A stretch of 64,000 nucleotides of DNA from Candidatus Brocadia sp. (lineage in GTDB: Bacteria; Planctomycetota; Brocadiia; Brocadiales; Brocadiaceae), in NCBI GenBank assembly GCA_021646415.1, contig SOEU01000002.1, positions 248,001-312,000 on the forward strand, read 5' to 3'. Below are positions 6,853-10,495 of the stretch, piece after piece; position 1 is the first letter of the stretch; the number at the start of each line of letters is the position of its first letter. Below the pieces are notes generated by a model that searched no databases, had not been told where the DNA came from, and saw only the letters and a program-made list of their open reading frames with translations. The translations under genes and the position numbers were made by a program.

Positions 6853-7758
6853 TTGTCATCCGATATTCACAAAGTGCTTTCAGAAGTGAGCAAGGAACGG
6901 ATTCAAGGGTACGTCCATGCCATGGAAGGATTGCGTCATGCATGGGAGAATTATGATGCCTTAGAGGAAAGAGCTAAATTTATAGAAGAAACCTTTCGCT
7001 CCTTTAACCTCAAAGTGGAGAACCAGGATGTGCCGTTCTATGGAAGGAGATTTCGAAATATCATTGGTTCCGTAGAAGGAAGTGATGGAGAAAAGGAATG
7101 TATTTTTTAGGTGCCCACTACGATGCTGCATGGAAAAGCCCGGGTGGTGATGACAACGTCAGCGGTGTGGCCGTGCTCCTTGAGGCAGCAGGGATTTTGA
7201 GCAGGCAGAGACTCAACAGAGCTGTCCAATGTGTCGCCTTTACCCTTTGAAGAACCCCAACTACAGACCTTCAGATTTCGGATCGGTAGCAATCATTTTG
7301 TAAAAGAGGCAAAAAGATGGAAAAGGAAATACGCGGCTGTCCTCATCCTTGAGTGTGTTGGATATACCAATAAAGCACCGGGAAGTCAGGATATCCCACC
7401 ATTGGTGAAGATTCCTGTACCTGAAAGAGGCGATTTTCTCGGTGTTGTTGCAAATTATAGGTCTAAGTCTCTTATGAATGCCTTCCACCGTATAACGAAT
7501 GAATATGTCCCTGAACTCTATATTGTATCATATAAGGTGCCGTTATCAGGTTATATTATCCCACAAACACGGTGGAGTGACCATGCCTCCTTCTGGAATC
7601 GCGGATACCCAGCCCTTATGTTGACTGATACGGCCATGTTCAGAAATCCTTACTATCATACCCCGTACGATAACTACGAAAAACTTGATTTTACCTTTAT
7701 GGTAAATGTAACAAAGGCCGTCGTCAGTGTTATTCTGAATCTTGATAGATTTGTCTAA
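6853..7758 (+). pseudogene. M28 family zinc aminopeptidase, disrupted by two frameshifts
   Basis: Three frames together give one M28-like peptidase of about 300 residues. The first frame starts at TTG 6853, 9 nt after the ribosome binding site AGGGAGG, and stops at 7110. The next frame (from about 7100) gives FLGAHYDAAWKSPGGDDNVSGV, with the His and Asp zinc ligands of M28. The third frame (about 7235-7758) gives EEPQ..., the YYHTPYDNYEKLDF block with the last zinc-binding His, and the C-terminus. The first break is a run of six T at about 7102 where seven would restore the frame; the second is one extra T in CTTTG at about 7248. Both are single-base homopolymer changes, so a sequencing error is possible. 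If real, the enzyme is lost. Confidence 0.8.
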
Positions 7759-7809
7759 AAGATTATTTTTTAGCAGTAGTGTCCGGTTAGAAATTTGCAT
7801 GAGCGGTTT

Positions 7810-7848
7810 TTGTCATACCCGAACGCTTTTATCGGGTATCCAGAATCA
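7810..7848. repeat. REP-like palindrome
   Basis: TGTCATACCCGA and TCGGGTATCCAG form an inverted repeat around 7815-7839. It belongs to the same class as the elements at 46536-46562 and 63260-63324 (TGTCAT...CC and GG...ATCCAG patterns). Confidence 0.6.
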
Positions 7849-7984
7849 CGTTTAACCTGTTAAATTGTCTTTTATTTAGTGGGAACATTCTCGGACAACC
7901 TGTCAAGATGTAACCCTTTTTCTTTTTGTTAACAACGTCATCCAAATAATTTGCTTGTTCATGATTGCATCAAGTTCCACCAAG

Positions 7985-8052
7985 AACGATAAAGCTGTGC
8001 GGCGCAAACGAAGCGCAGCGTAGTTTGCGTCCGAACGAGCGCCTTGTTAGGC
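7985..8052 (-). other. attC-like recombination site at the cassette 3' end
   Basis: Read on the minus strand, the site begins with the R''-type box GCCTAAC, which contains the TAA stop codon of the cassette gene. It continues through GGACGCAAAC and its near-perfect complement GTTTGCGCC, with one unpaired base (the extra A) in the first arm, and ends at ATCG|TT near 7987. The single extrahelical base in an imperfect stem is a known attC feature. The final R' box is not GTTAGGC but GTTCTTG, as expected if the cassette recombined into a non-integron site. No integrase gene is in the window. A fold of the bottom strand would test this. Confidence 0.65.
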
Positions 8053-8820
8053 GGGTTCATTCCAATGCTTCATGTACAGAGAGCCGAATTCAACGACAGC
8101 CAATCCATCGCACAACAACTGCGGGTGGAATAAGACCGGCTCAGAGGGTTCTCCTTCAAAAGAGTGCAGAAACATAAAAGATGGTCTCCCTATTTTTTCT
8201 TGTTCTTCATAGAGATCATCAAGTTTTTCCCATTCCATGGCCTTTATCAGTTCCATTTTCTTACTTTCAAGCTCGTTGTAACGCACGCCCTCTTCTTCAG
8301 TGAATTCTGCTGGAGGAATATACAGAGGGATTCTGTGAGCCAAGGCGTCTCGATAAGACTTTAGGTATTTCTCATGCCAGTCTGTAATTGTTTCAGAAGC
8401 AAGATAGTCACGAAGCGGTTTAGGGAAATGCTTGCTTGTGCTCTCGCGAAACATACCGACTCCATGTTTTCCACCAACATCGGCTAACAAATCATGCCGA
8501 TATACAAAGGACCAAGCCCAATTATCAAAAATACCATAGAGATTCATGACATAGGCGTGCAGGTTTATCTGGACATCATGAACTACATCTCTGTGGAGTG
8601 GTTTGCTGGCAGTGAGGGGAAATTCATTAAATATATTTTTTAGACATCTCTTTAGGAGGTTCAATCTTCGCGCCGCGCCATACAATAGATGCTCTTTCAC
8701 GCCTGCATGGCCTGTTTCTTGTCCAGCCAATACGGTTTGTAACATTAGTTCTTGAAGGCTCCGGCGTACTCTCGTGTACTCTGCCTCAAATTTGCCAATC
8801 TGCTCATGCGTGTAGCTCAT
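8047..8820 (-). CDS. integron-cassette-borne protein of unknown function, possible HEPN-like motif
   Basis: The 257-residue product is not one I recognise. It is predicted to be largely helical. The segment SYRDALAHRIPLY contains R-x4-H, a pattern used by HEPN RNases, but a single match to so short a pattern is weak evidence. A charged segment follows (EEEGVRYNELESKKMELIKAMEWEKLDDLYEEQEK). The gene fits a gene-cassette layout exactly. GTTAGGC (8839-8845, minus strand) lies 18 nt before its ATG. Its TAA stop lies inside GCCTAAC at the other end, followed by an attC-like palindrome. No promoter is seen inside the cassette, as is usual for cassettes. Neighbouring genes give no clue to function. 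Confidence 0.8.
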   Translation of the reverse strand: MSYTHEQIGKFEAEYTRVRRSLQELMLQTVLAGQETGHAGVKEHLLYGAARRLNLLKRCLKNIFNEFPLTASKPLHRDVVHDVQINLHAYVMNLYGIFDNWAWSFVYRHDLLADVGGKHGVGMFRESTSKHFPKPLRDYLASETITDWHEKYLKSYRDALAHRIPLYIPPAEFTEEEGVRYNELESKKMELIKAMEWEKLDDLYEEQEKIGRPSFMFLHSFEGEPSEPVLFHPQLLCDGLAVVEFGSLYMKHWNEPA

Positions 8821-8838
8821 GGGAATTCTCTATCTCCC

Positions 8839-8845
8839 GCCTAAC
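8839..8845 (-). other. cassette boundary box GTTAGGC (R'-type)
   Basis: On the minus strand GTTAGGC stands 18 nt upstream of the cassette gene ATG. This is the sequence and position expected for the 5' end of an integrated gene cassette, with crossover between the G and the first T. Confidence 0.65.
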
Positions 8846-9003
8846 AATAATTATACAGTCTGTATAAAACGGCAAACAGAGACTGCCTCGATATATATAA
8901 GAAGTTGCCGTGTCTTCTTGTCACGCATTGTAACTGGTTTCATATCAAGTTTTTTCTGCAATTTTGCCAATCGCCCATTCCGGATTATACAGTCTGTATA
9001 ATC
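8846..9003. repeat. pair of identical palindromes bounding a ~150-bp segment
   Basis: TTATACAGTCTGTATAA occurs at 8852-8868 and again at 8984-9000. The second copy extends to an 11-bp-arm palindrome with GGA and TCC ends. The pair could be two operator sites or the ends of a small element. No gene is seen between them. The order ACAG-CTGT is the reverse of a LexA box. Confidence 0.6.
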
Positions 9004-9181
9004 CAGCCTACAACCCATCGACCGGGCTTCGGATATCGTGACTTTCTTTGATCAAGACATAGGTGTAGATTATCGTCGTGTTAACGTCATTGGCGAAGAC
9101 AATCAGAGATTATCATTTACCGTTTTACAATGTCAAGATTCTTTATATGGAGAGATGATAGGAAATTGTTTTTTTCCTTAG
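8999..9181 (+). pseudogene. short coding-like remnant, unidentified
   Basis: An open frame without a usual start reads ASDIVTFFDQDIGVDYRRV and then NVIGEDNQRLSFTVLQCQD before ending at TAG 9179-9181. Its composition looks protein-like, and it starts right after the second palindrome, so it may be the tail of a truncated gene. I do not recognise the family, and chance cannot be excluded. Confidence 0.25.
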
Positions 9182-9251
9182 AAGGGATGATAATACAAAA
9201 AATGAAGAAGAATGCAAGCCTTTTTCGTTTCTTCTGGGGAAAGAACTGAGG

Positions 9252-9418
9252 GTAATCGTTGGGAGCATTCCCGATTTTTTGTGACTTCTGCCAGGTTTTA
9301 ATGAAACGTACAGCAGTGTTAACCCTGACAGGGTTTGAAACCCTGTCAGGGTTGTTGAATTGTTTTGCCCTGACCCTATGAACTGCTACAAAAAATCGGG
9401 AATGCTCCCGTAATCGTT
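9252..9418. mobile_element. 149-bp MITE with 22-bp terminal inverted repeats and 9-bp target duplication
   Basis: The element spans 9261-9409. Its ends are perfect 22-bp inverted repeats beginning GGGAGCATTCCCG. It is flanked by the direct repeat GTAATCGTT at 9252-9260 and 9410-9418. A central hairpin (AACCCTGACAGGGTTT and its complement, 9321-9353) occupies the middle. It has no coding capacity, so it must have been moved by a transposase encoded elsewhere. Confidence 0.85.
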
Positions 9419-9604
9419 CCAGGCTATCCGGGAATTGGTGTTTTCGTAAATTCATGTGTCATAATTTGTGCTAATTTTGTGCTAAAATCAATCCAAAAGA
9501 ATAGAATGAATTGAAATGGATGGAATTGTTATAATACCAACGATCCCTTAATTTTAAGGCAAAACAGGAAACCATCCCAATATCAAGGACTTATAATTTT
9601 TAAT

Positions 9605-9700
9605 ACTTTCGCCCTTTCAGGGCTAAAAATATTATTAAATCTTTATCCCAGGGCTGTCGCCCTGGGCTATATTCTATCAGCCCTTCGGGCTTTCCCCGAA
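9605..9700. repeat. triple-palindrome intergenic repeat
   Basis: Three hairpins follow one another: GCCCTTTCAGGGC (9611-9623), CCCAGGGCTGTCGCCCTGGG (9647-9666) and AGCCCTTCGGGCT (9679-9691). This pattern is typical of bacterial dispersed palindromic repeats. The rest of 8821-9871 outside the listed elements shows nothing recognisable. Confidence 0.65.
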
Positions 9701-9871
9701 GAGAAAATCTCTTTACCTGAATTCAATGACGTTGCCTTCGCAAGGACAGGATCAAAGGGAAGTCTCCCACTTGATTTTAGGTAACTATGTTTTACGGTAT
9801 CTTATAATTAGCAAGAATAGTTTCTAAATTTATTTTACTCTGCGACCTCTGTGGTTTAAAGTTTCTTTTGT

Positions 9872-10495
9872 ATGAATAAAACCTTCAAAAGCAAACAGGA
9901 ACTGAGGCAGGCTGTCTGGGCCTACATGGAAGAAAACAATCTTGTCACCTTTCCACGACCCTGTTATGGAAGGATACCCAACTTTGTCGGCTCTCGGGCT
10001 GCTGCGGAAAGACTGAAAACCCTCATAGAATGGAAGGAGGCAAGGGCTATATTTTCGGCTCCCGATGCTTCTTTACATCCAGCAAGATGTGAGGCTTTGA
10101 AAGAAGGAAAAATCCTCCTGGTAGCTGCGCCGAAGTTAACGGGGTTCTATCTCATTAAAGATATCCCTCCAGAAAAGGCATTTGAGGCATCAAGCATTAA
10201 AGGATTTTCCAGATATGGCAGGCCGGTAAAGATAGACGATAATCTTCCAAAGATAGACCTCTATCTCACTGGGGCTGTGGCGGTTGATAAGAAGGGGAAC
10301 AGGATCGGTAAGGGCACTGGTTATGGTGACAAAGAGGATGAAATTCTTTCGGGGGCTGGGCTTATAGATGGAAGAACTCCAAGGATGGCAATGGTGCACG
10401 AAGTCCAGGTCTTTGAGGATTTTTCATATCTCATGGAGAAGAAAGATAAAAAGGTAACGATTATTGTTACACCGGAAAAGGTTTATAGAGTGTAA
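9872..10495 (+). CDS. 5-formyltetrahydrofolate cyclo-ligase family protein
   Basis: The family converts 5-formyl-THF to 5,10-methenyl-THF with ATP. The 207-residue protein has the characteristic C-terminal block GAVAVDKKGNRIGKGTGYGDKEDEIL, which holds the nucleotide/folate-binding glycine-rich loop. It also has the N-terminal basic helix SKQELRQAVWAYMEENN and the FVG..AA segment. It resembles the archaeal and MTHFSD-like branch more than E. coli YgfA, so catalytic activity is likely but not assured. Its leader shares the phrase ACCTCTGTGGTTTA with the leader of the Hel308-like gene at 11980. It converges on the LigD phosphoesterase gene, with a 13-bp gap. Confidence 0.85.
   Translation: MNKTFKSKQELRQAVWAYMEENNLVTFPRPCYGRIPNFVGSRAAAERLKTLIEWKEARAIFSAPDASLHPARCEALKEGKILLVAAPKLTGFYLIKDIPPEKAFEASSIKGFSRYGRPVKIDDNLPKIDLYLTGAVAVDKKGNRIGKGTGYGDKEDEILSGAGLIDGRTPRMAMVHEVQVFEDFSYLMEKKDKKVTIIVTPEKVYRV

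Follow-up and report, generated by a model that had tools for sequence, protein, structure and literature searches.

On the minus strand of the window, by which we mean the whole 64-kb stretch of DNA that was analysed, a single gene lies within a unit bounded by integron-type recombination boxes, and the unit abuts a longer conserved segment (Table 1). As stated in the original prediction, the coding sequence (8820 to 8047) has GTTAGGC (reverse complement of 8839-8845) 18 nt before its ATG and a TAA stop inside GCCTAAC (reverse complement of 8046-8052), followed by the distal box GTTCTTG (reverse complement of 7981-7987). The R'' box is the exact complement of the cassette's own 5′ box, and the R' box departs from the GTTRRRY consensus. 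Homology to a Desulfobacula MAG (L017), in the stretch compared, is confined to 7985-8832, at 88% DNA identity, and thus ends with the cassette, as is expected of a unit that moves as a whole. The genome containing the window encodes hydrazine synthase alpha, which supports its anammox assignment, and the prediction of a single integron-type cassette with attC in an anammox genome was borne out by the covariance model and the boxes; judged by its sequence characters, it appears to be a real, ordinary integron gene cassette. The gene to its left (6853-7773), presumably peptidase-like, has a second, 89% identical copy on the same contig (G000:C2:393400-394319), and the gene at 9872-10495 beside the cassette found no match in the 10 other genomes of the genus, among which an empty counterpart of the window site, predicted to read ATTATTG joined to TTCTTGG, was likewise not found.

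Table 1. Positions of the cassette, attI and platform features in the window
Feature	Positions	Strand	Basis
Whole gene cassette, GTTAGGC to attC crossover	7981-8845	-	boxes; homology to Desulfobacula MAG (L017)
attC; R'' GCCTAAC at 8046-8052, R' GTTCTTG at 7981-7987	7981-8052	-	covariance models R1 and R2
Cassette gene, 257 aa, without known family, invariant RDALAH motif	8047-8820	-	sequence, homologue alignment, profile searches
5′ box GTTAGGC, cassette side of attI crossover	8839-8845	-	exactly complementary to R''
attI, about 90 conserved nt, terminus CTGTATAATTATT followed by GTT	8846-8935	-	aligned over 57 unique copies; 66 junctions
Platform 5′ conserved segment (about 470 nt), split by another repeat at 9260-9411	8846-9479	-	copy alignments
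Palindrome TTATACAGTCTGTATAA adjoining crossover	8851-8867		sequence; junction comparison
Second palindrome GGATTATACAGTCTGTATAATCC	8982-9004		sequence
intI remnant, last codons (NDVNTTIIYTYVLIKESHDIRSPVDG)	9011-9091	-	translation; alignment to intact reverse intI (L093)
Promoter-like TTGACA-16-GATAAT, 11/12 match, aimed at cassette, formerly upstream of intI	9107-9136	-	sequence match; family A conservation
Short 152-bp repeat with inverted ends, inserted into platform	9260-9411		found alone in other genomes

The ORF is followed by a complete attC architecture (R'', L'', L' and R', with an extrahelical base), and covariance models recognised the predicted attC on the minus strand. Model R1, built from 19 sites that include the near-identical attC of the Desulfobacula MAG, gave 38.7 bits (E = 5e-6 in 416 kb searched), and model R2, rebuilt without that sequence, gave 25.1 bits (E = 0.001), the site being its sole match in 64 kb. 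The fold expected of the bottom strand was recovered in part: there is a hairpin with an extrahelical A, but on the bottom strand the total energy lies within the range of shuffled sequences (z = -0.73, against -2.05 for the top strand), and, since the hairpin energy is not unusual, the fold alone proves nothing. A hand-written scan for strict attC boxes overlooks this site because GTTCTTG is not GTTRRRY, and an Rfam search of window positions 7000-10000 matched neither attC nor attI, its only hit being Acido-Lenti-1 RNA (RF01687; 9647-9692, 54 bits), located within a repeat that is found alone in several relatives. The attC by itself (68 bases, 7985-8052) recurs at 97% and 94% identity in two genomes of the same order (L147 and L148), behind a 586-aa ORF, which we take to be an OLD-like ATPase/nuclease, and a 306-aa ORF, presumably Mrr-like; the occurrence of what appears to be the same attC after three different genes is a prediction of a cassette system. 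Matches to attC (E 0.01) are present in all 33 genomes of the family, at 2 to 31 per genome, and the window's genome has 19 at E 1.

The 257-aa cassette protein has homologues in the Desulfobacula MAG (86% identical), in an Ectothiorhodospiraceae genome (65%) and on a viral contig (55%), and a search of 392 genomes of the phylum found it in the window's own genome only. Its RDALAH motif (Rx4H; R157xxxxH162) is invariant across four homologues and conforms to Rx4-6H, the form of the HEPN motif, which the original prediction had named as a possibility. Searches against Pfam, NCBIfam and PADLOC families, the HEPN profile included, yielded no match, and the structure model, all helical with a mean pLDDT of 48, is too poor for use because the protein has few relatives. 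Homologues with 30% identity (L179 and L180) are plasmid-borne in rhizobia and sphingomonads, and PIN-domain genes lie nearby.

A DNA search covering 59 genomes, the window's own among them, revealed a dispersed repeat that starts exactly at the upstream edge of the cassette. We read 61 loci (60 stretches around repeat copies plus the window), and 58 of them, in genomes of the anammox family, contained 66 attI junctions, of which five are duplicates or an inner match, leaving 61 distinct. The repeat terminates in TTATACAGACTGTATAATCATT followed by GTT, and the sequence beyond varies by copy; nearly all copies end in CTGTATAATCATT and GTT and then continue into different cassettes. GTT occupies the scripted column in 56 of the 61 distinct junctions, and the five exceptions comprise two one-base alignment shifts (L085 and L088), one inner match (L107) and two that truly differ (L130 and L131). 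For the attC position and box-match counts, covariance model matches of at least 20 bits were retained, dropping the 7 weaker of 68 rows. An attC at this threshold lies within 2.5 kb of 39 distinct copies and is absent in 22, and of the attC on junction loci that were outside the training set, after de-duplication, 33/35 are on the same strand and downstream, with five further such matches falling on loci without a junction. Among such attC, the R'' of the first one exactly complements the seven junction bases in 8/24 cases, versus 3.1% in mismatched pairs; a count that includes seeds chosen by box match (22/43 exact) is partly circular for that reason.

By comparison with these other copies, the window has an attI at the head of its array, and the upstream junction of its cassette is, on sequence criteria, best described as a conserved attI on a dispersed, intI-deleted platform. 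The original prediction had instead proposed attG insertion, with a single cassette integrated at a non-integron GTT site. The lone attC, the lack of an adjoining intI gene and the off-consensus downstream box GTTCTTG would agree with such an event, but the upstream edge is a conserved site of about 90 nt, shared by 61 distinct copies whose adjoining cassettes differ. The comparison of 66 junctions refutes insertion at an attG on the upstream side, where the target is a conserved attI, and we regard that origin as highly improbable. On one contig, four identically oriented attI copies lie within 7.5 kb (L095, G020:C1:3073502-3086944), and from this locus attI appears to be repeated inside arrays as well.

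Upstream of attI, about 27 C-terminal codons of intI are left, 166-246 nt upstream of the cassette, and the promoter-like element beyond them, its match to TTGACA-16-GATAAT spanning 9136-9109, has a mean identity of 95% over seven family A copies. In seven of the eleven copies that share the window's intI deletion (see below), the promoter and leader vary in 5/45 columns versus 31/81 in the intI stub (Fisher p 0.001), and attI, with 28/90 variable columns, does not differ from the stub (p 0.34). The cassette had been described as lacking an integrase, which is true of the adjoining DNA, since the window has no functional intI next to attI and is therefore not a complete integron, but not of the stub upstream, nor of the genome, where an intact intI is found on another contig (C12). 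The repeat that splits the platform at 9260-9411 has copies about 90-93% identical in G008 and G002.

Some similarity to intI was detected in 28 of the 66 copies, and two (L088 and L093; G004 and G021) have a near full-length intI upstream of attI, with its 3′ end about 165 nt before the junction. These observations bear on the idea that the platform is not attI at all, but an unrelated mobile repeat that inserts beside cassettes, for example by targeting attC ends. Such a repeat would be dispersed and multicopy, as the platform is, yet it would not be expected to carry C-terminal intI codons, nor to run on, in the arrangement of a reverse integron, into the near full-length intI of L093 and L088, nor to be cut at GTT with cassettes on one side only, and we give this explanation hardly any weight. 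The anatomy of the platform as an integron derivative is, in our judgement, nearly certain.

One and the same fusion, joining reference positions -1215 and -246, is carried by 11/66 copies, the window's included, in nine genomes of two genera; it takes out intI and leaves the promoter, the C-terminal stub and attI. Because the flanks outside the platform are mostly different among these eleven copies, the deleted platform would have been copied after the deletion. This runs counter to a scenario of decay only, whereby complete integrons acquired cassettes in cis and were subsequently deprived of intI, with no movement since. Decay could account for the varied lengths of the intI fragments and the stop codons in them, as well as for G015 (4 contigs) and G022 (1 contig), nearly closed genomes in which attI copies are present and no intI match was found at E 1e-60, and an excerpt of the IntegronFinder 2.0 paper (PMC9024848) describes CALINs as degraded integrons; it does not explain eleven copies at different places with one deletion.

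The other side of the arrays has a conserved segment as well in many cases, a 3′ repeat of about 130 bases, starting with GTTATAC-TGGAAATATATACTAATC, after the last attC; the window copy is without this segment. A composite query, made of the attI end and the 3′ segment, was searched in the family, and of the 114 matches listed 77 end at the junction or close to it, 37 begin at or past it, and none spans it with at least 20 bases on both sides, as a vacant platform would. Where 5′ and 3′ segments occur on one contig, 17 pairs are in the expected order and strand and none is discordant. Inspection of the platform by eye revealed no terminal inverted repeats that could be claimed.

Evidence for cassette replacement comes from one orthologous locus in two species. 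On G004:C16 and G005:C1 the same deleted platform (87.5% identical) stands between the same two neighbours, presumably an M32-type carboxypeptidase gene and a DUF763-like gene, with flanks 84-90% identical, and the cassettes differ, the breaks lying exactly at attI and at the last attC; flank homology restarts directly behind the last GTTRRRY. In G004 the interval from attI to the 3′ segment is taken up by a 526-aa ORF, which we assume to be ATPase-like, and others, and in G005 by two different ORFs, presumably DNA-methyltransferase-like and HNH-like. On the simplest reading of these sequences, intI would already have been lost in the common ancestor, and the cassettes changed afterwards, an indication that an integrase acted in trans. 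Gene conversion could have given the two orthologous loci their common deletion, or the array may have been replaced through homologous recombination. For decay only, the differing cassettes at this orthologous locus are the second difficulty, and we consider that scenario unlikely. The anatomy of the platform, its dispersal, the shared deletion and the different cassettes at this locus can all be read from the compared sequences.

The window's genome contains one intact IntI (476 bits), on contig C12, where it heads an integron of normal orientation that has an attI and cassettes of its own. It is 58% identical to the reverse type and thus of another type, and that it could use the window-type attI is a guess. 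The cores of the two attI types are alike (CTGTATACTTAATA and CTGTATAATCATT, each followed by GTT). The C12-type integrons of G000 and G003 are 92% identical up to the GTT of attI and then have different cassettes, and a cassette that comes first at this attI type in G003 recurs in G005, 90% identical in DNA and cut at GTT, where it follows one of the dispersed attI copies, indicating that both attI types draw on one cassette pool. Genes for IntI above the family cut-off occur in 14/33 genomes of the family, and some platforms may be stranded, since G015 and G022 have attI without intI. In the window's genome, a 6247-base region (L074, G000:C4:54116-60362) is 100% identical to one in another genus (L089, G013:C21), and one of the two bins probably holds a foreign contig.

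The following course of events would unite these data. The platform ancestor would have been a "reverse" integron, its intI directed at attI and the cassette array, from which one internal deletion removed almost all of intI, so that the former intI promoter came to lie some 260 nt before the cassette. This reduced platform, made up of promoter, intI stub and attI, would then have spread by copying to numerous chromosomal positions in genomes of the anammox family, several copies bearing a matching 3′ segment of about 130 nt past the last attC, and every copy holding its own cassettes. Capture and exchange most likely proceed by bottom-strand attC × attI recombination in trans, with IntI supplied from elsewhere in the cell, and cassettes may be expressed from the platform promoter. 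We infer the activity of this promoter, the participation of IntI in trans and the mode of platform spread, and, going by the sequence comparisons, the trans mechanism is likely. That the window cassette occupies the attI of an intI-deleted, multiplied reverse-integron platform, where it was most likely exchanged by a trans-acting IntI, we hold to be quite probable.

In the usual integron a single intI is paired with one attI and one promoter, expression is largely confined to the leading members of the cassette queue, and arrays deprived of intI are regarded as frozen. Here the docking site and the promoter would be separate from the integrase and copied round the chromosome, and one locus appears to have changed its cassettes after the loss of intI. 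The scattered integrase-less docking sites suggest one gene-capture system spread over the whole anammox chromosome. We lean slightly towards a broader interpretation, that of a distributed integron, in which a small, integrase-free module of a strong promoter and attI, bordered by conserved segments on its 5′ and 3′ sides, multiplies like a non-autonomous element, its copies capturing and swapping cassettes through IntI in trans, whereby numerous "first cassette" positions would be expressed simultaneously, and not just a single one. If this is true, the limit of one expression slot is gone, and many apparent CALINs and solitary cassettes are working sites; an attI consensus is now available for locating such sites in the anammox group.

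Comparison with known systems shows that the cassette is ordinary and that the dispersed intI-less attI platform is an unusual variant of an integron; among the matches listed in literature searches on anammox integrons and on multiple, orphan or solo attI, no dispersed attI platform was described. Integrase-less integron units are also carried by MITEs. Conserved segments on either side of cassettes are known from class 1 integrons as 5′-CS and 3′-CS. The shortened attI copies within arrays resemble the delta-attI cassettes reported in the text available from PMC12901181; in distinction from these and from class 1 integrons, the platform is of other sequence, chromosomal and multicopy, and has lost its integrase by a shared deletion. 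Insertion at attG, reportedly the subject of Loot et al. (2024, Nat Microbiol) and mentioned in PMC12901181 and PMC12444791, likewise leaves a cassette outside a complete integron, cut between G and TT, but the target here is a conserved attI, as opposed to the scattered genomic consensus of attG. As in CALINs and single-attC elements, attC cassettes occur without a neighbouring intI, although the window, with one attC in 64 kb, falls short of the two or more attC without intI (the IntegronFinder default being two) by which a CALIN is defined, and, unlike in CALINs, attI and promoter are retained and repeated genome-wide, with cassettes apparently exchanged. Excerpts from among six papers (PMC9024848, PMC9668308, PMC12444791, PMC12901181, PMC3607928 and PMC11641012) include the statements that CALINs may be mobilised in trans and that in Xanthomonas intI loss is accompanied by stable arrays. 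Portions of PMC3607928 term an array without intI static, and describe reverse integrons in Treponema, with the Kuenenia intI in the same clade. The present platform is similar to such reverse-orientation chromosomal integrons in that the intI genes of L093 and L088 are transcribed toward attI, in the direction of the cassettes, and differs from them in being multicopy and, for the most part, intI-deleted.
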